From Phorcus lineatus (lineage: Eukaryota > Mollusca > Gastropoda > Trochida > Trochidae), in assembly GCA_921293015.1 (NCBI GenBank), contig OV121094.1:33788054-33852053 (forward strand): a DNA stretch of 64,000 nt. The letters run 5' to 3'. The stretch's first letter is position 1. Each line of letters opens with the position of its first letter. A program made the position numbers and the translations under genes. Of the stretch, positions 8,958 to 47,563 are shown in pieces. The notes below the pieces were generated by a model, which was not told the origin of the DNA, did not search any database, and saw only the letters and a program-made list of their open reading frames with translations.

Positions 8958-9051
8958 ATCATCCTGTCTCAGGGTAACACGTATAGCTGACGCTCCACTA
9001 CATAAGTGGAGTGGAGCGTCAGCTATACGTCTTACCCTGAGACAGGATGAT
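8958..9051. repeat. Long foldback (42-bp arms)
   Basis: The left arm at 8958-8999 (ATCATCCTGTCTCAGGGTAA onward) is matched by a nearly perfect reverse complement at 9010-9051 (ending CCCTGAGACAGGATGAT), with a 10-base loop. Only one or two pairs mismatch. No protein is encoded. The right arm runs straight into a terminal fragment of the TTAA MITE. Confidence 0.93.
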
Positions 9052-29963: not shown

Positions 29964-32900
29964 TTGTGACCTATTTTTTGAAAACAAAAGAATAATATTC
30001 TAAAATTTTATATACTTACTAATTAAATATAGGATGGTACAATGAAAGTAAAATCTGTCTTGAAACAATAGCGGTCATGTCATATTTTCACTGCAGTCAG
30101 AAAAGTAGGTAGGGAACCTGTTACCTCTTTTTGTAACACAATTATCTCCCTTGGCGCATTAATTAGGACAGATGATTAACGACTTGTTTTATTATGAAAA
30201 AATTAAGGAGGTGAGCTGTCTGTCACAGGCATTGCAGCTTCTCTGACCGTATGAATTTTGCATTAAAACTGATTGTTCTAAAACCATAGTTTATATTTCT
30301 CAAGTATATCCCAAAATATATTTTTGATTTGTAAACATTCTCAACAGATATATTTTTCAAAAACAATTGCCAAATTTCTTATGATTTATTTGATCATATC
30401 TATTTCCTGATCGCATTAACTATTCAACAGTGAAGGGGGTTGTAAGGCTGTACCAACCATCATTTAACAGCAAATTTTTGCTGACATGGCTAGCCTTTAG
30501 ATGTCAGTCTACAGCATTTATAAAATGTTTTATTAAGATAAAGAGTATGTAATGAATAGGCTATTTAATTTTTTTGGTAAAATATCATTTAATCTCATCT
30601 TTTGTAGTGAGAAAGTGACATTTTTACCTGGGCAGCCTCACTCGTAAAAAGTGTCACTTTCTCACCTACTCAACGTGATAGATATGATATTGGACAAAAA
30701 CAATGAAATAGTCTCTTTATATTACTGTTTCAGCCCTCAAATATGTTTCATGAACATATTGTCCTGAATAAATATGGTTTTAGACATTTCTACTTATTAA
30801 CAAGTCAACATCCTCATGGGTATATTATGTCTGTCTTTCTTTCAGATGAGATGGAAGTAGTTCATGACGCTCCAACTCCACCAAACCTCTCCCCAAGCAT
30901 TAAAACATGGGATTCAGACCAGCAGCCTATCTCCCAGCCGGCCGACACCAAGTCTGTTGAGCAAGAAGAGATGGAAGAAGACGTTGTGGACCTTACAGAG
31001 GATGAAGTGACTGGGGGAGTCAGAGAGAGGGCCGACAGCACTCAGGGACTGGTGTCTGGTGCAGCTGAACACTCTCAAGCTCCCGGACAGGGTGAAGCAG
31101 ATGTTACATCCACACAGCCTGAAGATGTATTCTGCCCTGACTCATCTGGGGAGATTGAAATAAGGGCTTCCCTAGTAAGGGCAAGGTCCTCACCATCAAG
31201 GTCGGTGAGAGAATCCCCCAGTAGGGAGATGAGATCCAGCAGAGACTCATCGTCAAGGTCTTCGAGACACTCGCCAAGTAGGTCAGTTAGGGAGTCTCCA
31301 TCTAGAGAAACAAGGTCATCACCTGCAAGAGAGACAAGGTCATCACCTGCTAGAGAGACAAGGTCATCACCCGCTCGAGAGACAAGGTCATCACCCGCTA
31401 GAGAGACTAGGTCATCACCTGCTCGAGAGACAAGGTCATCACCTGCTCGAGAGACTAGGTCATCACCTGCTAGAGAGACTAGGTCATCACCTGCTAGAGA
31501 GACTAGGATATCGCCTGCAAGATCATTAAGGGAATCTCCAGCAAGATCGTTAAGGGAGTCGCCAGCAGGGTCACCAAGAGGGTCACCAAGAGGGTCACCT
31601 GAACCTTCTTCCTCCGTAGCTGTTGATGAGGAGAAACTATCCACATCTAGGAAACATTCTCCATCAAAACATCGGGAGCAGTCCTGGCTGAAAATGGAGT
31701 CTCCAGTAAAAGTATTTGATGAATTGTTCGGCGAATCCCCTGGAAAATCAACCCGGAGTGTCACCAAGAGGATTGTTGATGATGTGACAACTTCACCTTC
31801 TAGATCCAGAAGAAATGAGGCAGAAGAGACGTCCCCAGGGAGACCAAAATCTGCATCTCCTAATGGATCTGTGGGTAAGCAAAAGGCAAAAGCATCACCA
31901 TCTAGAAGGAAACCAAAGAAGGATGCTTCGCCTGAACCGGCAGTTGCTGAACCACAAGAGGTTTCACCTGAGCGTCCCAAGTCAGCCTCACCAAGACAAA
32001 ATACTAAGGCATCACCTGCAAGAAGAAACTCGAGAAAGGTTAAAGATATTTCTCCTGAAACTGCCATGTCAACATCACCAAATAGAGAGACAGTTAAGCC
32101 ATCACCTTCAAGAAGGAAATCCAAGAAGGCTGATGATGTTTCTGTTGAAAGAGAAATGTCAACTTCACCAAGTCGGGAACAGGTTAAGCCATCGACCTCA
32201 CGGAGAAAGTCCCGCAAAGCTGAAGAGACTTCTCCAGACAGAGCCATGTCAACATCTCCATCAAGAACAGAGCCTGCAGCCAAGGCCTCCCCGGGAAGAA
32301 GATCAAAGAAACAAGACACCCTTTCGCCAGCCAGAGCTGAATCAGCCTCCCCAACCAGAGCTGGAAAATCTGCTGTAAAGAAATCTCCTGGCAGGAGACC
32401 CAAGAAACAGGAAGTTGAAACATCGCCCCAAAGAACAAGCTCTGCATCACCTGCTAGACAAACCACACCACAACAGTCTCCTGTCAGACAGCAGTCCAAG
32501 TCTCCTGGACGCCGTTCATCCCGAGCTGCTGCTCAGAAGTCTCCAGCAAGAGGAAGAAAGAAGGTGACCAAGGAAGAATCTTCACCTGAACAAGTGACCT
32601 CCACATCTCCTGGGCGTAAGTCATCTCAGTCTCCTGCCAAGACAGAGTCACAAGACCTCAACGAAAAGTCCCCCGATGCCAAACCTTCACCTGGGCGACG
32701 ATCAACTCGGAAGACAACAGATCCTTCAAAATCTCCTGGAAGAGGAGGCTCACGGTCAAAGAAAACTTCTGAGATGTCGCCTGAGAGGGAAGAGGCAGCT
32801 TCTCCAGTGAAGACCACAAGGTCAAAAGCATCTCCAGCTAGAAGTGCCAAGTCTCCGGGACGGGGTGCCAAGAAGACCCAGATGACCAAGTTGAAGAGTG

Positions 32901-35785
32901 CGGAAGAGAAGGATGTCACACAGCCTCTCTTCATCAACACTGACGGTGAGTCTTGAGCAGATACCAGATCATGTTAAAAAATGTCACCGTGTTAATGGGG
33001 ATGGGAATGTAGCTAGCAAACAGTCCTTCTCATCAATAAAATTGAAATTACATGTAAATTTTACCAAAAATCTGCTATTGTTATAGAGAATGGCTCTACT
33101 ATTCCCCTGACTAGCTGAACATCAATATTTTAAAGTTTAAACATTGCATGATAATTTTGCGGCCAATAAAAGTATACATTGATGAGGTTCTCAAGGAAAT
33201 TTATATTCTTAAACTACATTCTTCTTGGATAAGAAAATAATAAATCATTCATTCAGATCAGAACAATAGTTTGATTCATTGAGACTCTTTGTTAAAGTAA
33301 ATGTCACACCCATATTGTCAGGTTTCTCATCTCTTAACTTCAAACCAATCTTTACAGATGTCGAGTCTGAAGTTGGTCCTGTGTCCCCAATCCGCCGCTC
33401 CCCACGCCTGATGATTAAGACTCTGGACAAGCAACAGACTGACAGCGAGGACGAGGGGGAGATAGTCCAGATAGAATCTGTGTCTAGTTCCAGCAGGCGC
33501 AGGAGGAGACCGGTCAGTTTTCAATTGATTAAGACTTTCATTCTGATGTTGAGACATAAATAGAAATATTTGCTGTCACACTATCTGCATTGTACAAAGT
33601 CTTGTACTTTTTCTGCATGTATATAACACCCTCAGATTCCATAATGTTGTTACAAGAGTGGTAATTGTCAAACTTCATTCCCTGGTTATTCATTGTTAAG
33701 TGCTGTTGTTGCAGATTCCGAGTACAGAGTTTAAGACCCCACCGCGACCCAGCAGAGTTAGCGTTCCCCTCACACCCCCGGAGTCTGGCAAGGACTCACC
33801 AGGAGCTTCAGCTACAGAAGAGGTACTTTCAAGTTGTGGCCAGGATTTCATTATCATGTCAAACATCTATATTAACTTTAAAACCATTTGGGACTTTGAT
33901 TTACATGTACAAGAGCAAATATCAATAAACAAACACTTAGACAAGAGATAAGATAGTTAAACTGTTCAGCTCTGTTCATGTGCATTGCTACTGAGCACCA
34001 CAAACACATCAGGTGGTTAGATACAATAGTATTAAAAGCTTTGTCATTACAATGTAATCTGCCTTTAGGAAACTAACATTTTTTAATGTGGTATTAACTT
34101 CAACTCAATGAACTTATGGATTTGTTAAGAAAACCATTGAAAGCAGCTAAGTTATATAGAAGTGTTTAGAGACCAGAAATAGAAACCAAAAGACACATTT
34201 AAATCATTTTTCACTTTGTGTAGTTGAAGTCGAAGAAGAAGTCTCCAGGCCGGAAACCTGCAGCAGGACGACACTCGACTCGTACACGAGGCAAGGATAC
34301 AAGTCTTATAGAACATTCAGGTGAGGCATTAACAGAGATCTGGGCCTATATCTTTAAAGCTCTTTTAGTGCTAAGATAGTCGTAAGCCAATGTTAATGTA
34401 TGGTACTTACGACTATCTTAGTGCTAAGAGAGCTTCGAAAATCTAGGCCCTGGTGTGCATATAGGCCTGTATGATCTTATTTGAATAGTTCCATTTTTAT
34501 GAATTATGAATTTTAATATTCATTTTGTTACAATGCTTTGTTTGTTGTAGCTTCAAGTTCAGGTGATGCATCTTTAACAAGCTTCCACTTCTCTGAACCA
34601 ATGGCCATAGAGCCAGAGATACAAGGTGAGTTGAACAGCTGTCATCTGAAGAAGAATTGTTTGGTAGTTTTTCAACTCTTGTCAGTCTCATAGTGGTATT
34701 GTAGACCTTCAGTCATAGAAACGGAAATCTCGATAAAGGTTTGCAATGGGCTTAGTTGTTCGTAGTTTGAAAATGAACTTGCAGAACATGTAGTAGTGAT
34801 GGTTATAGTCGACATATTTCACCGCTTTTATCACACAGCATGATGTACATTTCACTATTTTGCAATCTATTATCAACCATTTATAACTGATATTTCAGCA
34901 CAAAACCAAACCAGAATGTTCTTGCTATCGTTCACTTTAGACAAATGAAAAAAGAGAGTCAGGGAAACAGTCTGAACAGCAGGATTCCATCTTGCATCTG
35001 AATCATTGAATTGTATACATTATTCCAGCACGACTAGCAGACCCAGGAACCCCCATCAAGTCCTTCATTTTCTCTCCCCCTATTACGAGGAAGAGAACAG
35101 CCCCAGCCCCTGTGAGTGATGACCCTCCAACACCAGTTACCTCCCTTCTCCCATCCACCTCTACACAGGAGAGTGAGCCTACGCCTCCACCGGCACAGAA
35201 ACCTAAAGCTCGCAAAGCTGTCAAGAAGGAAACGTAAGTCTTTATATGATGCCTGAATGTGACAAAATAAAATTTGCATATCTCACGATTATGTTGCATT
35301 TATCCTCAACTTGTAGCTAAATATTACCAATGTGCCACTAAACAACTCACTAAGGCAAAAGGTTTTTTTTGTGTGAGAATATGCCTGTGGTCATTATTTT
35401 CAAAGCTCTTATAAAACATTAAAAATATCTTCTGTTCTTCAGTAAGCATTCTTTTGCCTGACCTATAACACACAAAAAAACATCATGTAAAGAGTTATTT
35501 AAGGTACAAACACCAAGGAAAAAAGAAAAGTATTATATATCCTAAAATATCATTTATTAACTAAGCGATTCATTTAATTTCAGGACTAAAAAGAAGAAAA
35601 CTGTAGAGCCGCCTATAGCATCACCAAGTGATAGCCCAATAAACTTTGTGAGCCCAGCCCCTGAGAGACGACGCACTCGAGCCATGGACCGCGGAGCAGC
35701 TGGGACAAGTAGTGGAGATACAGCCGCAGCTGTAGTGCCTCCAAAGAAGGGCAAGACCCGCAAGAAGGTCGCCAGATTATATTAA
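12693..35785 (+). CDS. AHCTF1: Nucleoporin ELYS (AT-hook-containing transcription factor 1), complete, 39 coding exons
   Basis: ELYS binds chromatin at the end of mitosis and recruits the Nup107-160 (Y) complex to start nuclear pore assembly. It also sits at kinetochores and interphase pores. Joining GT/AG exons gives one open frame of about 2,389 residues (human is about 2,270). Orthology rests on conserved blocks: QEPENDPKNFCYIWVA, DMNRWYHAQMP, LLIDGLV with PPPSLHA, FWLLDHKDFE, ALRYIN and ARNSIVDG. The ATG at 12693 is preceded by an in-frame TGA within the same exon, which supports this start. Every exon phase I worked out is compatible with the next. One donor (exon 19, 22127) is non-optimal. 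The stop is TAA at 35783-35785. The exons are listed in the three domain entries below. A downstream convergent zinc-finger gene begins its 3' end beyond 37.7 kb. Confidence 0.96.
14385..14502. mobile_element. Foldback MITE in ELYS intron 3
   Basis: The outer arms GGGCCTCCTTTCACAAAGC (14385-14403) and its perfect reverse complement (14484-14502) enclose a TTAAGGTAAC-rich interior, itself partly palindromic. It is non-coding. Similar foldbacks are common in mollusc genomes (my recollection). Confidence 0.9.
19133..25725 (+). other. AHCTF1: ELYS exons 13-26: alpha-helical ELYS domain (residues ~510-1060)
   Basis: Exons as read: 19133-19194, 19536-19655, 20086-20176, 20383-20472, 20808-20948, 21575-21679, 22031-22127, 22719-22839, 23184-23297, 23403-23504, 23885-24075, 24552-24646, 24940-25121, 25578-25725. 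This is the helical solenoid with the Pfam ELYS-like domain. Recognisable pieces are LKFLLDWAWDKV, LVLWFIDTGLLPE, DLLLIDGLVS with WEQDGG, HSIVFYLLLDL, QIQAFWLLDHKDFE, QGESKMALRYI, and RERAAARNSIVDGFF. The human counterparts are in the same order. Exon 19 must stop at 22127 (donor GTTCGT) for the frame and the family alignment to continue. Reading on to 22150 breaks phase. Confidence 0.92.
21023..21482. mobile_element. MITE in ELYS intron 17
   Basis: The ends form an inverted repeat: CACTCCCTCCTGGATTC at the left and GAATCCAGGAGGGACTG at the right. The interior repeats TTCTGCGG/CCGCGGA motifs and has no reading frame. A diverged inverted relative lies at 11460-11860, upstream of the ELYS start. 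Confidence 0.85.
25836..26614. mobile_element. 779-bp TIR element with CG-rich ends in ELYS intron 26
   Basis: The left end TACTGTAAAATCAT and the right end ATGATTTTACAGTA are exact inverse matches. Each is followed inward by TTCGCGGGG and further TTTCGCG motifs. The dinucleotide TA abuts the right end and may be part of a short target duplication. No transposase is encoded, so it is a non-autonomous element. CpG content is far above the local background. Confidence 0.9.
29917..29963. repeat. (ATC)n microsatellite in ELYS intron 32
   Basis: About 15 uninterrupted CAT/ATC triplets between exons 32 and 33. It reads as a D run on the minus strand. Non-coding. Confidence 0.95.
30607..30665. repeat. 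Hairpin in ELYS intron 32
   Basis: GTGAGAAAGTGACA followed by TTTTTAC is mirrored by GTAAAAAGTGTCACTTTCTCAC after a 16-base loop. The arms are about 21 bp with a single bulge. Confidence 0.88.
30846..32945 (+). other. AHCTF1: ELYS exon 33: single 2.1-kb exon of SPxR repeats
   Basis: One exon encodes about 700 residues, roughly 30 percent of the protein. It opens with an acidic segment (EEMEEDVVDLTEDEV), passes through an RS/SP-rich zone, then repeats a loose module of 20-30 residues of the form (S/T)SPxR...AKxSPxRRxKK to its end. The antisense strand is open for 474 codons across 31075-32499, but that is a by-product of the repetitive codon pattern. The exon starts after TTTCTTTCAG and ends at G|GTGAGT. 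Without splicing the frame would stop 11 bases later. Confidence 0.93.
31313..31504 (+). repeat. AHCTF1: Eight tandem 24-bp units encoding RSSPARET in ELYS
   Basis: Units start at 31313, 31337, 31361, 31385, 31409, 31433, 31457 and 31481, each 24 bases, and all translate to RSSPARET. Differences between units are only synonymous (CCT/CCC, AGA/CGA, ACA/ACT), so the peptide is conserved while the DNA has drifted slightly. The array is flanked by related SPSRET and ISPARSLRE modules. Confidence 0.95.
34342..34450. mobile_element. Foldback MITE in ELYS intron 36
   Basis: The outer GGGCCTA/TAGGCCC ends enclose matching inner arms (TAGTGCTAAGATAGTCGTAA and its inverse). It resembles the 14385-14502 element in its GGGCC ends but has a different interior. 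Confidence 0.85.
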
Positions 35786-40595: not shown

Positions 40596-42459
40596 TTAAT
40601 CATCTCCCCCTCCAAGCATTCCAAACTTCCGGTACCGATAGGGGGCTTCCGGGTGTTTGCGCATGTGCCAGTTCATTGCATTTCTTTGTCGACACCTGTA
40701 ATCACAAAAATCACACTTCAAAGGCTTCTCGTCTTTGTGTATCAACAGGTGCACCTTGAGGTGTCTCTCTGCTGCGAACTCTTTATAACATCCGGGCCAC
40801 GAACACCGATATGCCCGGATGTTGAAGTGCTTCACCCTAATATGTTCTTGTAAATGAAATTTCTTCATGAATTTCTTCTTACAGTCATCATAAACACAGG
40901 GATACTCCTTCTTGTTGTGGCATTCCTTGACGTGAGTCTCCAGCTCCGCCTCGTCAGCACTGAGCACAGGACAGTCGTCAAGCACACACCTCAGAGAGTT
41001 CTTGTGCTTCTCCTTATGGCTGAGGTAGGTCTTCTCGGACAGAAACAGTTTGTCACACTCATCACAGGAGAAACTTTTCAACTCAGTCTCTGCCTCTCCA
41101 TGAACCTCACGTCTGTGTTCCCTGAAATCCGAGAAACACTTGAACTCTTCATCACAATCTTCACATCTGTTCTCACTTGATTGGAGGTCTAAAGAAGACT
41201 CCAATGACTCACTTGATTCGTTGAAATTCTCACTGCAGCGTTCGCACTGGAAGCTCTGAGGCGCTTCAGGGTCGTCGCCATCTTTGCCCTGAAGGAAGCT
41301 GTAGTACTCTTGACCACATGTCAGACAGAAGAACTTGACCGGGACGTGTTGTTGTTTGTGAGTCTGTTTGTCCTCAGCTGGTACAATCTCGTTACACACT
41401 TTGCAGTGGTAGAGTTCGTGGAACATGTTCTTAGAGAGAGGCGAGTCGTCCACCGTGGATGTTGGGGAGAGGTTGTTTGTATCTGCTGACGATTCTACTG
41501 GGGCTGCAGATGAGGGAGAGTCAGTATTTCCTGTACTGGGAAGGTTGTTTACATTTGAAACCATCTGTACAGGAGTAGCCTGGACGGGTAGTTGGGTATC
41601 TGCTAATACTGGAGGTTTAGGCTGTGCTTTGTGTCTCGATGCCCTCGGGCGGATCCTGAAGGATGTACATATGAAGTTTTCACCGGATTTAATGATATTA
41701 CTGGACTGGCGTTTCCTAGGTTTGATGTTGATAAGCGACTTGGACGACAGAAGCATCTCCTGAAACATGGAACCATTTGCCTCTTTGGCTGAGCCGTTTG
41801 GTTCTGTTCTTTGGAGTTCAGGAACCGACGCCTGGTAGGATAGTACTTGCTGATCAGAATTATTCAAAAGTTGAAGTTTTTTTAATTTCTCATCATCCGG
41901 CAAAGCATCAGCACCAATACTGTGGGTACTGAGGATGGACAACATAGATCCATCTGCCGATATTGAAGCAGACTGACTCGACAAAGACGTTGCCACTGTG
42001 GTTTGCGCATTGTCTCTTTTCGGCTTCTTCTCAGCCAGAAGATGGGAGAGAACTGGAAGCTTGGGTGGCCTTCCTCTTTTCCTCACTGGTTTTCCCAGAG
42101 CAGAGATTGTTGCATTAGGGTAGACCATCATCACAGACTGTGTGGTTGCAGGTTGAGAGGTCGCTGCGGTCGTCGCTGCTGAAGCCTCAGGTATCTCTTG
42201 AGACGTGACAGGGAGGATCGTCATGGAAGGTTGTGGAGGAGTTGGTGGAGGCGGAGGCTGTGGCTGAGCCTTAGTTCGGGATCGTCTGCTCCAGGGTAGC
42301 TTCAAGATGCTGGTGTAAACTCCTGGGAACATGGTGTTCTCCGCCACTATCTTCATCTCTGTTGATTTCGCTGGCTTTGGAACTTTGTTGCCTTTGTTTA
42401 GACTCCCTGGCTTTCTTCCCCTTCTCGCTGGTACGTGCGGTTGGACAGGAGCTGGTTGT

Positions 42460-42491
<32 letters not shown>

Positions 42492-43496
42492 AAGTTGTGG
42501 CTGACTCAGTGCGGGAGAAGAAGTCTGGGGTTGAGCTGAAACTGAAGTAACCTGCATCGGTACTGAAGTCATTGGACCTGCGACAGCTTGTAAGATTGGG
42601 ATTGCAACAATGTTTCCTTGCTGATTTCCATTGGCATCCACACTGAAGTTACCAGTCAGGAACTTTTGTCCGCCTTCAACAGCGGTAACAGTTGGCAACT
42701 GCATAGACATTTGCATCGGCATCATGATACATTCGTTCTTGTTCCCACTCACAGTGAAAGATCCGGAGGAAGGAACAGCAGACGACATGACGACTTTACA
42801 CTGATTTGGCATTGTTGAGGCCATAACGAGGCCCCCTTGACTCAAATGTGACCCAGCTGCGTCTGTTGTCATCATGGCAGACGATAACATCGCAGACGGC
42901 ACGAGGACTCCAGGTGAAGCCCGTGGACTATCAGCACAAGCAAGGGACCTCTGTAGAAGAGTTTTCTGGTGATACGTTGCCTCTGTCCTCTCACTCTGCA
43001 AGCATTGAGAATCGGTCCCACGCTCTTCTGATTTGACTACCAGAGATAGATCCAAAGGCTGATCTCCAGATTCCACTTCCGGTGCCACTGGGCTGTCACG
43101 TGACACGTATCCAGTGTCAATAGCTGGAGATCGTCTGACAATACCAACATCAAATAGTCTCGTCCCAAAAGTCTCACTCATGACCTGTTTGTCATCGACC
43201 AATGGCGGTGTTGAGGAATTTATCTCGGACTCCTCGCTGACTGGGCGATGCCAGGTCGTATGGGGTGATACCCTGGAAGTAATGAAGAAAGAAATTTTAG
43301 AAAAGTCTGAAATGACGGATAATGTATTGCTTTGTTTATTATTTGATAACAAGAAATGCATTTCTTTTATGTTACCTAAATTTAGCATAATAAAATCATA
43401 ACTTTCATACTATACATGTATAGACAACGTCAGTCCACCCTTTTGCGAATTAGTTTGATTTTTGTTTAACCAGATGACGTGTTGTTCGGCGTCCAT
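40596..43496 (-). CDS. AT-hook and C2H2 zinc-finger protein, probable transcription regulator
   Basis: The main exon runs from 43272 down to the stop at 40596. A short upstream exon at 43496-43471 (M-D-A-E-Q-H-V-I, donor TG|GTTAAA) joins it in phase to give about 900 residues. An alternative 5' exon is described at 47564. Seen in order: a Ser/Thr-rich N-terminal half, a Q run (~268-280), AT-hook-like RRGRKPGS (~290) and RKRGRPPKLP (~405), then about seven clear C2H2 fingers plus CxxC half-fingers at ~630-885. The last finger, CDFCDYRCRQRNAMNWHMRKH, resembles the terminal finger of the ZNF653/ZNF692/ZNF276 group, so that relationship is likely but not certain. Sequence-specific DNA binding in the nucleus is inferred. 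The exon acceptor is ACTTCCAG at 43273-43280. Convergent with ELYS. Confidence 0.85.
42457..42492 (-). repeat. CAA/CAG repeat encoding a polyglutamine run
   Basis: On the plus strand six GTT and four GCT/GCA-like triplets in a row read as about ten consecutive Q on the minus strand, within the zinc-finger protein. Such runs are common in transcription regulators and variable in length. Confidence 0.9.
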
Positions 43497-43668: not shown

Positions 43669-43861
43669 TTGTTTTACGTCTATGTATATACTGTAACATC
43701 ATTGCATTAAGAAGATTATTGTTTTCCCCTTCATTCCGAAAATAATCATTTTGTTTGAAAATTCAAATTTATATTGGACTGAATTCAAGGACTTGATACT
43801 TGTGTTGACATCGTGGATACTTTAATAATTTGTTCCTCTGACCACCTCGCGGTATGTAATG

Positions 43862-43982
43862 GTTATATGACGAGTATTGTTGGTGTAATCCACGAAATGG
43901 TTGGTTATACGACGAGCCGCGTAGCGGCGAGTCGTATAACCAACCATTTCGTGGATTACACCAACAATACGAGTCGTATAAC
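43862..43982. repeat. 121-bp near-perfect palindrome between two gene starts
   Basis: Positions 43862-43920 pair with 43924-43982 around a three-base centre (gta). The core arms 43874-43913 and 43931-43970 are perfect over 40 bp. Only three or four pairs mismatch overall. GTTATACGAC-type words recur in both arms. Both strands are short open frames, which is simply the consequence of the palindrome. It lies between the zinc-finger candidate start (minus, 43496) and the recombinase-derived gene start (plus, 44332). It is either a foldback element or a regulatory or instability-prone cruciform. Confidence 0.95.
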
Positions 43983-44234
43983 TTACTTAAACCATGACTA
44001 CGATAAAATGTCACCTTTTCAGTTCCAAAGCATGTAGAATTTGTTAAACAATTTAGTTAGTGTTCAGCACTATTTTGATATGATGCATCACAAACTAGTG
44101 AAGCGGCTTTAAAAATACCGTATTTCCTATATTTGTTGTAATACAATATCTATTGTCTATCCGAAACTAAAACACGACTTTATAATAGAGGGTTTACGGT
44201 ATCATGTTTACGTCTGCGATCGAGTCCTGCTTTT

Positions 44235-44258
44235 CACGTGCAGAGCGGAAACCACGTG
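44235..44258 (+). promoter_or_regulatory. Paired CACGTG E-boxes upstream of the recombinase-derived gene
   Basis: CACGTG occurs at 44235-44240 and 44253-44258, 18 bp apart, about 80-97 bases before the ATG at 44332, in a locally CpG-richer stretch. CACGTG is the site for bHLH-zip factors such as USF and MYC/MAX. Promoter function is inferred from position. Confidence 0.4.
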
Positions 44259-44331
44259 TGTTAAAGAGCTCGGTAGGACTCAGTCATTTGCGACGCGGCG
44301 TTGTGTTGACAGCTTGTGCTCTACAGACAGA

Positions 44332-46852
44332 ATGGAGGGGAATTTCAGCGATGATGATTTAATACCGTCTAGTCAATCACAAACACAAGAAAACGACAAC
44401 ATTTCTTCAGAAGATGAAGACCTTCTTGTCGCGTCTTGCCAACAGGCCGAGGAAAGTGTTGAAGGGATGAGGCCATTGAGGGTTGAAAGGGAGTCCTTTG
44501 GTATGTAACTGTCTTTCATTTTGATTTAGTGTACTTTGAGGACGAGTGTTTATCGGTAGAGTCAGTGAGTTGTTGTACAAATATATTTTGCTAATTTGAG
44601 AATTGTAGGCTATCGATGTGCAATGACTGTTCATGAACAGTATTGTGTTACAATTACCAATTTGTTCTGTATAGTGTATCTACTCCGCGATTGTGATCGA
44701 AAACCGGACAATTACGTCATCAATTAGTCGAACGTGTTCTTCAATGTACAAATTGGATTTGTTAGTACCGGTATACTATTTCATAGGTTCACATTAGTCG
44801 TTAGCACCTATAGAGCTCCTGTTATCGCAGCTGCGAACATTTTAAAAGCAATTTCGTTGAAATAATCCAAATACCTTCACTCGTACCTCACTGCGGTTGT
44901 TCATGACGGTGACCTTCATGTGGCCTTAACGGTGGGTGACCTTTCACCTTGCAACACGCTACAATATAAAATCGGCCTGATAGTTTCCCAGTCATGTCGC
45001 TGATTGGGTTGATTGGACGTTCACCTGATATGACCCATATATGACGTGGTACTCAGATAAACAAAGAAAAAGCGAGCAAACCTCACATACCCCCACTGGA
45101 TGTTTGTAAATCATGACCGGTAGCAATGTTGACACAGATTTTGAAAAAAATTAAAACAGATTATCTTGTCACAAATCACACCATGAACCTTTTATGAATA
45201 TATTCCATGAAAATCAAAAGTCTCTAACAAAATTTGGAGATATGCAATGTTGACTTCGTAGGTGGGGGTATAACAAATGCAGCAAGGTACGAGTCAAAAC
45301 GTTTAATTTGATTTGAATGAGATTGCAAAAACTTCTTATAATCTACTTTCATCAATGACAGTTTGGTAGAATAACTTACAGATGATTCTTTTTATTTGCA
45401 GAACGTTTTCCAGAACCGAAAACGGACAAGGAAATCGAGGATCTTTCGAAGAAAACTATGCCGGAGAATACGGAGAAAACAATCAAATGGGCATGTCGTG
45501 TTTTTGAAGACTGGCGTGAAAGTCGCAACTCCAGAATCAGAAATGGTGGTTGTGTTGGCCAGAAATTAAGTATAATTGACATTAAACTCGAAGACCTCCA
45601 CGACGATGAGCTCAGCTTTTGTTTATGTAGGTTCCTTTGCGAGACCAGGAAAAGTGATGGAAGCGAGTACCCCCCTAAAACACTGAGGCAACTGATACTG
45701 TTAATTCAAATGCATTTGAACAATCAAGGGCGGCAAGTTAACTTCTTGTCCGATGTCATCTTTAACGAATTGAGAAATACACTCGACAACATGATGAAAG
45801 CCGGTGCAAGGTCTGGTCATGGTCTGCAGAAACGTCAAGCTGACGTCATCAGCGTTGAAGAGGAAGAGAAGCTGTGGGAACTCGGATTGCTGGGGGACAG
45901 ATCTCCTCAAAGTCTTTTGGACACTATGGTGTTCCTGATGGGGTTGAACTTTGCGTTACGCAGCGGCGAAGAACACAGGAATTTAAGTACTGATCAGCTG
46001 CGTCTTGAGAGGAATGCTTCTGTAGAGTTACTGAGGTACACGGAGAAAACCAGCAAGAATAATCAAGGAGGCCTTAAGACTTTTCGGGTGACACCCAAAA
46101 GTGTCTGTTCCTATGCTGCACCTAGGAAAGAGCGATGCATCGTGTATCTTTACAAGAAATACATGGATCTGCGCCCAAAGGAACCGACGTCGTTCTACCT
46201 CCGCCCACTGACGAAGCCGAGAGCAGACATGTGGTACTCGGTTGCCCCAATTGGTCAAAACACCTTATCGACAACTGTCAGGAGACTCTGTCAGGCTGCT
46301 GGCATGAAAGGTAACTTATTTTGAAACTGGTAAAACTAAATTGTATTGAAAAAAATTAATAAAGTTTCTTTGAGATCAATACCGTATAATGTATATTAAG
46401 TTTCCTACTCTGTGAACCAAAACGGTTATCTTTTGACACTTGTATGTATTTTCAATTCAATATTTTATTAGAAAAATCCCATTGGTAGTATATGAATAAT
46501 ACAAATATTACAACAAAATTAAATAGATTTTAGTGGCCACAAAAGTATACTGTTAATTTTGTTTTATGTGACGTGAACTTTCTTTGCAGGGCATTATACA
46601 AATCACTCCTTGCGGGCAACATGTGCAACTCGACTTTTTCAAAGTGGAGTTGACGAGCAACTGATCTGCAAGACGACGGGCCACCGAAGTAATGCAGTGC
46701 GGGAGTACAAGCGTGTGAATGATGACCAGGAGGAAATGATTAGCAGCATCATCCAACGTGGTGCCAAGCGAGCTGCAACTTCTACCCCAGCAGCAACATC
46801 TACCGGTCCGATAGAATTCACAGTTACCGTTAAGATCCCCAAAAGTTCTTAA
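44332..46852 (+). CDS. Crypton-derived tyrosine recombinase protein (KIAA1958-like)
   Basis: Three exons, 44332-44500, 45402-46310 and 46590-46852, give 446 residues with GT/AG borders and matching phases. An acidic N terminus (residues 1-60) precedes a helical SAM-like/core-binding region (~75-210) and a tyrosine recombinase domain (~215-410). Visible catalytic positions are R243 in LRSGEEH, a Lys-rich hairpin near 270-280, H365-x-x-R368 in HSLRATC, H391 in TGHRS and Y399 in REYKR, so the set looks complete. Crypton transposons encode this enzyme class, and animal genomes contain domesticated copies (KIAA1958, QRICH1, ZMYM families), mostly with lost catalytic residues. Intact splicing, a possible promoter with two E-boxes and a good poly(A) signal favour a host gene, while the retained active site leaves a live or recently live Crypton possible. 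The start is the first ATG. Confidence 0.88.
44681..44735 (+). mobile_element. Small fragment of the TTAA MITE in intron 1
   Basis: TGTGATCGAAAACCGGACA followed by a diverged GTCAAATAGTCGAACG-like segment matches the interior of the MITE family at 8316-8780. The termini are absent. Confidence 0.5.
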
Positions 46853-46891
46853 GTCCTGCACAATCGTCCAGACTGTAACAATTATTACGTG

Positions 46892-46897
46892 AATAAA
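46892..46897 (+). terminator. Polyadenylation signal of the recombinase-derived gene
   Basis: AATAAA lies 40 bases after the TAA at 46850-46852, with a T-rich stretch (cttgttttctttg) downstream, as expected of a functional poly(A) site. Confidence 0.65.
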
Positions 46898-47563
46898 TGT
46901 CTTATACCAAAACTTGTTTTCTTTGAAAGTAGTTCCGGATACCCAAGACCATCGAATAACTAACAATTTGGTTGGTTATACCATGGGCGCCAACAAGGGA
47001 GTCATGGTTTAAAGTTGGGTTATAGGGATGAATCATTGTTTTTACGTATCCAGCTTAGTCACCTTGAGTTAATATTAATCTTAAATGTAATGTTTAACTT
47101 GTTCCTTAAATCAAATATCACATTTACAAAACGCACTCTTTCGATTACTATACAGATATTCACAATAGTCTCGACTAAGTTATATGCTGGAATAACCACT
47201 CTCATTGAAATAAGTTCTAAAATTCGCTCGTTTTCTTAATAATTAATATAACAAGCTAGATCGCTCTCTCAGGCACTCAGCTTAAAGCAGATGTCCCGCT
47301 AACATATTGCCCGGAAATGACTCTAAATTACACCACACAGCGTTAAATCATCCGACACAGTGCGTTCGCGATGTTGAGAGTTTCAAAGTGGACCCGATCG
47401 GAGTCACGTGACGAGCTACGTCAGAGGTCTCTTTAACCAAGAAAAAATACTTTGTTCGGCTTTGTAAGATTTACTTTTGGCTATCAAAAATTGATCTAAA
47501 ATATCACCTCTAAATTGCTATTACGGTATAATAACGGTCTGTATAATCGATAGCCCCGCCCAC
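46898..47563. other. Intergenic/intronic stretch
   Basis: No exon is seen. AGTCATGGTTTAA at 47000-47012 is the exact reverse complement of 13 bases at about 43983-43998 beside the palindrome. The motif GTCACGTGAC is at about 47403. Otherwise nothing is recognised. Confidence 0.45.

Follow-up and report, generated by a model that had tools for sequence, protein, structure and literature searches.

A tyrosine-recombinase gene within a repeated element

The window analysed here, a 64-kb stretch of DNA, contains a 3,157-bp Crypton element that carries a three-exon recombinase gene and has a long quasi-palindrome at its upstream end. Its features are the following.

43856–47012, + strand: whole Crypton element, 3,157 bp; the flanks of 13 copies diverge exactly at its ends, and empty sites were found for two
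43856–43986, no strand assigned: terminal quasi-palindrome, a predicted hairpin in single-stranded DNA (DNA fold; covariation with related families)
43856–43861, + strand: 6-nt core GTAATG at the palindromic (L) end, after target TA followed by T, A or C; the same in 13/13 copies with an L end
43872–43873, + strand: GA of a GA/GA mismatch, 16 nt from the crossover; recurs in other families
43987–43998, − strand: inverted copy of the element's other end, TTAAACCATGAC (direct reading); pairs with the R-end in the joined-end fold
44332–44500, + strand: exon 1 of the recombinase gene (sequence reading)
45402–46310, + strand: exon 2, DUF3504 region with R243 (spliced frame, Pfam, motif positions)
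46590–46852, + strand: exon 3, with H365-x-x-R368, H391 and Y399 (spliced frame, structure alignment, motif positions)
46892–46897, + strand: AATAAA poly(A) signal (sequence reading)
47001–47012, + strand: R-end of the element, GTCATGGTTTAA, with target DNA after it (copy flanks and insertion junctions)

Splicing of the three exons, across introns bounded by GT and AG, gives a single frame of 446 codons, as proposed in a preliminary description of this DNA; the exon model is one of 16 open-frame splice-site combinations, and was picked by eye on the strength of its splice sites and of its agreement with relatives. On the spliced protein, the computed motif positions place R243, H365-x-x-R368, H391 and Y399 exactly where that description had numbered them, and the protein carries the R-H-R-Y set of a tyrosine recombinase. 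The poly(A) signal and the two E-boxes of the candidate promoter (CACGTG at 44235–44240 and 44253–44258) are likewise readable as described. Pfam analysis of the spliced protein returned DUF3504 (E=2.7e-29), the QRICH1 domain (E=7.6e-16) and Phage_integrase (E=2.6e-11, profile positions 74–170 of 172). A weak structural alignment to XerA (5hxy, E=0.016) sets H365, R368, H391 and Y399 on the H, R, H and Y of XerA, the alignment to QRICH1 (9hjt, E=3.2e-14) has a lysine opposite R243, and IntI4 gave only a weak PDB match (E=0.019). The Lys-rich stretch of the recombinase spans residues 267–285, and its K275 and K282 have counterparts in the frames of F1 and L001.

The whole gene is contained in a repeated unit. 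The count of near-identical copies, a check proposed in the preliminary description, gave at least 12 full-length copies, the window's included, with different flanks on 9 contigs (DNA search with the locus; best 40 of 192 candidates scored), the other 11 being 99.65–99.87% identical to the window copy. Copy flanks part exactly at GTAATGG... and ...GGTTTAA, and there are partial copies besides: L021 is truncated at its 5' end, L022 lacks 139 nt and L024/L030 is a derivative with an internal deletion. On average, pairs among 13 copies diverge by 0.22%. The reading frame is kept in 11 of the 13 delimited copies (10 at full length, L016 one codon shorter) and broken in L015, by a 2-nt deletion near the C-terminus, and in L022, by its 139-nt deletion. 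Among frames of at least 120 aa, the coding strand of the element holds only the recombinase exons, with no reverse transcriptase (Pfam being run on the protein only).

The flanks of 13 two-ended copies were joined and searched in the assembly (best 40 of 861 candidates scored). Those of L016 and L013 match element-free repeats at base level with no gap at the join, and target bases were thus neither duplicated nor removed on insertion. Two of 15 further insertions, from related families (B_L055 and F4), gave matches of equal length across the join, judged by match length alone (best 40 of 2,559 candidates scored). A search of 28 insertions for terminal repeats accompanied by target duplication found none, and in the same 28 the target and R-end share only TA, so that short (4–6 bp) terminal direct repeats of the fungal type are absent.

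The preliminary description had left two readings open, a host gene that selection maintains for strand exchange or a recently active element. An open frame, introns, a poly(A) signal and conserved residues would all suit the former, but the repeated unit, with its 12 near-identical full copies and empty sites, encloses the entire gene; a domesticated gene that kept its recombinase chemistry is therefore rejected as wholly improbable, the gene being multi-copy and within a mobile unit. Recent activity is strongly supported by the near-identical full copies in different flanks, their 0.22% divergence and the empty sites, and the gene almost certainly encodes the enzyme that transposes a recently mobile, CryptonA-like element, which is called CryptonA on the basis of DUF3504 and its animal host. 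An intact active site is ordinary in a mobile Crypton; the unusual part is the palindromic end, which lies outside the interval first described.

Across the coding region of the 13 copies there are few substitution events for dN/dS, 6 nonsynonymous and 5 synonymous. Comparison of recombinase sequences between families gives pN of 0.25–0.44 and pS of 0.83–0.94, at which synonymous sites are too saturated for a usable ratio; the values nevertheless suggest that the protein is under constraint. A DUF3504 profile search of the 958-Mb assembly scored 150 of 693 candidates, every one above the cut-off, which gives at least 150 matches, and the score and frame of the window's exon 2 (105.6 bits, 312-aa open frame) recur at six other places. 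With several groups of these matches agreeing in score and frame, this single animal genome carries a rich load of Cryptons.

The palindromic end and its relatives

Together with 12 more bases, the quasi-palindrome has a predicted single-stranded DNA fold of −61.6 kcal/mol (z −17.3, 0/200 shuffles as good), and in an ungapped palindrome scan of the 64-kb window it scores top at 44 (next 39, 24). The palindrome scoring 39, at 8958–9051, is also strong, with perfect long arms and a fold without a GA/GA loop, and no adjacent DUF3504 frame was seen; the weaker one scoring 24 lies at 34342–34450. Just inside the element's palindrome, 43987–43998 is the reverse complement of 47001–47012. In a junction of the two ends such as a circle would contain, 13 of the final 14 nucleotides of the R-end are paired, the core follows, and the predicted crossover falls inside the hairpin stem, with the 6-nt core opposite 4 nt. 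The predicted folds show a palindromic site with extra-helical bases, as in an integron attC.

Related families in the same genome were reached by different routes. Families B (L054–L057), C (L058–L062) and the A2 copies were found by DNA similarity that included the palindrome, F1 comprises the best DUF3504 matches, and F4, F5 and F7 were picked for tandem matches at constant spacing. All four of F1, F4, F5 and F7, none of them chosen for a palindrome, have the same end structure as the window's family (A) with a different stem sequence. Recombinase identity to the window's is 52–63% in segments of B, 40% in F1 and 31% over 261 aligned positions in F5.

The palindrome lies upstream of the gene in the window family, as might be expected if it served transcription, RNA stability or replication outside the recombination site. 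In F5, however, the gene lies upstream of the palindromic end, whose place relative to the crossover is unchanged, and the palindrome abuts the crossover and includes the inverted copy of the other end, all of which makes such a role distinctly improbable. The F5 arrangement likewise disfavours a promoter or 5'UTR structure. Resolution at the palindrome's centre, as by a protelomerase, was also considered and set aside, the breaks lying at the stem base instead.

Pairing along the stem is kept between families. When 12 ends belonging to A, A2, B and C are aligned, sequences whose relatedness inflates such tests, 95.9% of cells pair compared with 83.0% in shuffles. Double-changed cells number 74, compared with 28 ± 3.6 (0/500 shuffles as high); sliding the partner leaves no more than 12. 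Counted by pair, double change is only modestly raised, at 20 of 58 pairs against 16.3 in shuffles (7/500 as high), and further pair types are at chance (27 vs 28.0). In the folded junctions of A, B, C, F1, F5 and F7 the active core is 2 nt longer than its partner (6 vs 4, or 7 vs 5 in C as folded), and the F4 fold has two unpaired core nucleotides.

A second shared detail is GA facing GA, which occupies 10 of the 12 two-by-two internal loops in six family representatives (A, L009, 2/2; B, L055, 2/2; C, L058, 0/1; F1, 1/2; F4, 2/2; F5, 3/3), compared with 5 of 214 loops in control folds of window tiles away from the palindromic end. The loop at +16 is present in 12/13 A copies, 3/4 of B, 1/5 of C, F4, F5, F7 and A2_L066, is one nucleotide off in L065, and does not occur at +16 in F1. 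Tandem G-A mismatches stack well, so a folded strand could have GA at corresponding positions of its two arms, whereas mirrored protein-binding arms would not. At the 5' ends of L013 and L020 one GA/GA mismatch is now perfectly paired, as quasi-palindrome correction would give.

Core placement, target and strand exchange

In all 28 insertions with both ends read, the family core stands at the palindromic end and is absent from the other end. These insertions (A 13, A2 2, B 3, C 4, F1 4, F4 1, F5 1) come from one genome. The strings used to locate their ends contain the core, so that core-less copies are harder to find, but no two-ended copy was dropped for want of a core. Left out of the count were the truncated L021 (5') and L007, L064 with a damaged palindromic end, L056 and L058, whose other end was not found in the fetched stretch, L081/L082, whose palindromic end was not found where expected, the deletion derivative L024/L030, the F1 tandem pair, the F5 copy on C29, F7 (junction only) and L063. 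The last of these is a fragment with the palindromic end only, in which TCAATG replaces the core GTAATG, either by mutation or as a target-derived core.

Across the site TAN|N6|NTA, the sequence at the R-end is target DNA and that at the palindromic end is the core. T-3 and A-2 are each found in 28/28 insertions, T+8 in 25/28 (p 9e-10) and A+9 in 17/28 (p 0.003); in family A alone the latter two are 12/13 (p 1.5e-5) and 7/13 (p 0.10). The target is two half-sites symmetric about six bases.

The main rival account of these junctions is two-strand exchange of a double-stranded circle, in which the palindrome would supply accessory recombinase-binding sites and heteroduplex cores would always be repaired to one strand. 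The symmetric six-base core spacing is typical of tyrosine recombinases, binding-site-like repeats occur inside the palindrome, and for fungal Cryptons the relevant passages of PMC3212892 propose short repeats as substrates together with a circle. Two-strand exchange over a 6-bp core, however, predicts a mixture, as heteroduplex cores should resolve either way; 28/28 one-sided cores have a probability of 7e-9 under even odds, and the same placement throughout demands complete repair bias. Complementarity also runs along the whole stem, with compensatory changes, and mirrored double-stranded binding sites would not place GA opposite GA at matching positions. We consider two-strand exchange possible but rather unlikely.

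Tandem copies with native end-to-end junctions are found in F1, F4, F5 and F7 (for F7, whose ends are undelimited, the junction only), an arrangement that, as far as sequence can tell, is consistent with a circular intermediate. Head-to-tail tandem Crypton copies at constant spacing, with junctions as from a circle, were seen at L068, L074, L075 and L076.

The simplest account of the strand rule, the six-base target, the stem-embedded crossover, the core asymmetry and the GA/GA loops would be one-strand exchange through a folded site, which we favour as the probable mechanism, with some reserve. The element would move by circularising one of its strands, and the joined ends of that strand would fold in the cell, with the R-end, the 6-nt core and then the palindrome forming a hairpin. 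The stem of this hairpin would act as the double-stranded crossover site, its active arm bearing the two extra core nucleotides, and the recombinase would cut the folded site and chromosomal TAN|N6|NTA on one strand only and swap that strand. Replication would then fix the product, with the result that the palindromic end retains the core, the other end retains the target's six bases, and the target is neither duplicated nor lost. Against one-strand exchange, strand-biased repair of a double-stranded reaction would leave identical junctions, and the GA/GA loops are not invariant, one having been lost in 2/13 A copies and the +16 loop being absent from F1 and present in 1/5 of C.

Known systems and surroundings of the element

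Like CryptonA elements, the window element has a single DUF3504-type tyrosine-recombinase gene, with no extra C-terminal domain found, inserts without terminal repeats and has a non-autonomous derivative; unlike the Cryptons described in the literature covered, it has a one-sided core, a terminal palindrome that encloses the crossover and, next to it, its other end in inverted copy. Animal Cryptons are described as without terminal repeats in the pertinent part of Kojima & Jurka 2011 (PMC3212892), and a 2022 curation guide gives a short direct repeat as the sole distinguishing feature of Cryptons (PMC8969392). Searches of open-access literature, and passages of PMC4157794, PMC5753468 and PMC12910113, gave no description of a terminal palindrome or strand-biased insertion in Cryptons. 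Domesticated DUF3504 genes (KIAA1958, ZMYM2/3/4, QRICH1, KCTD1 and WOC) share the homologous domain (QRICH1 E=3.2e-14), but they are host genes whose catalytic residues are reported as lost in the section concerned (PMC3212892), whereas the window gene is intact and mobile.

Closer parallels to the end structure are bacterial. Integron attC sites, in the account of them given in PMC2727003, have variable sequence, conserved boundaries, an unpaired spacer and extra-helical bases on one arm, and recombine by one-strand exchange. The window element shares the palindromic site, the variable sequence with conserved boundaries and the unpaired bases, and one-strand exchange is what we would propose for it, but integrons are bacterial, IntI has an additional segment of its own, and cassettes carry no recombinase; by analogy, the resemblance would be one of convergence in working and not of membership. 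The Vibrio SE elements, strand-biased circularising integrative elements, carry along a 6-bp spacer and form one-strand circles according to the sections of PMC9345347 that treat them, where the authors also report no inverted-repeat structure in attB, attL or attR. They too are tyrosine-recombinase elements with the same junction logic, but are bacterial, larger and have two recombinase genes. Whether animal Cryptons at large represent a eukaryotic form of single-stranded folded-site tyrosine recombination, with an attC-like hairpin delivering one strand into TAN|N6|NTA, convergent with integron cassettes and common to families down to ~31% protein identity, is to us an evenly balanced question.

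The cutting and joining of Cryptons has so far been understood by analogy with bacterial elements. For an animal Crypton, the end structure and the target are now defined, and there is a strand rule open to testing with oligonucleotides. If the mechanism is true, single-strand folded-site recombination extends beyond bacteria; the end structure would aid in finding animal Crypton ends from sequence, and the system directs attention to an animal recombinase that is compact and has a simple target.

An open frame of 937 aa on the − strand (40596–43409), about 0.45 kb away from the Crypton, has poly-Q ends and contains several C2H2 zinc-finger-like repeats; the insertion may be in the promoter region of this frame. 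Further away, at 30707–32956 on the + strand, a 749-aa open frame contains many repeated units of SPARETRS-like sequence.
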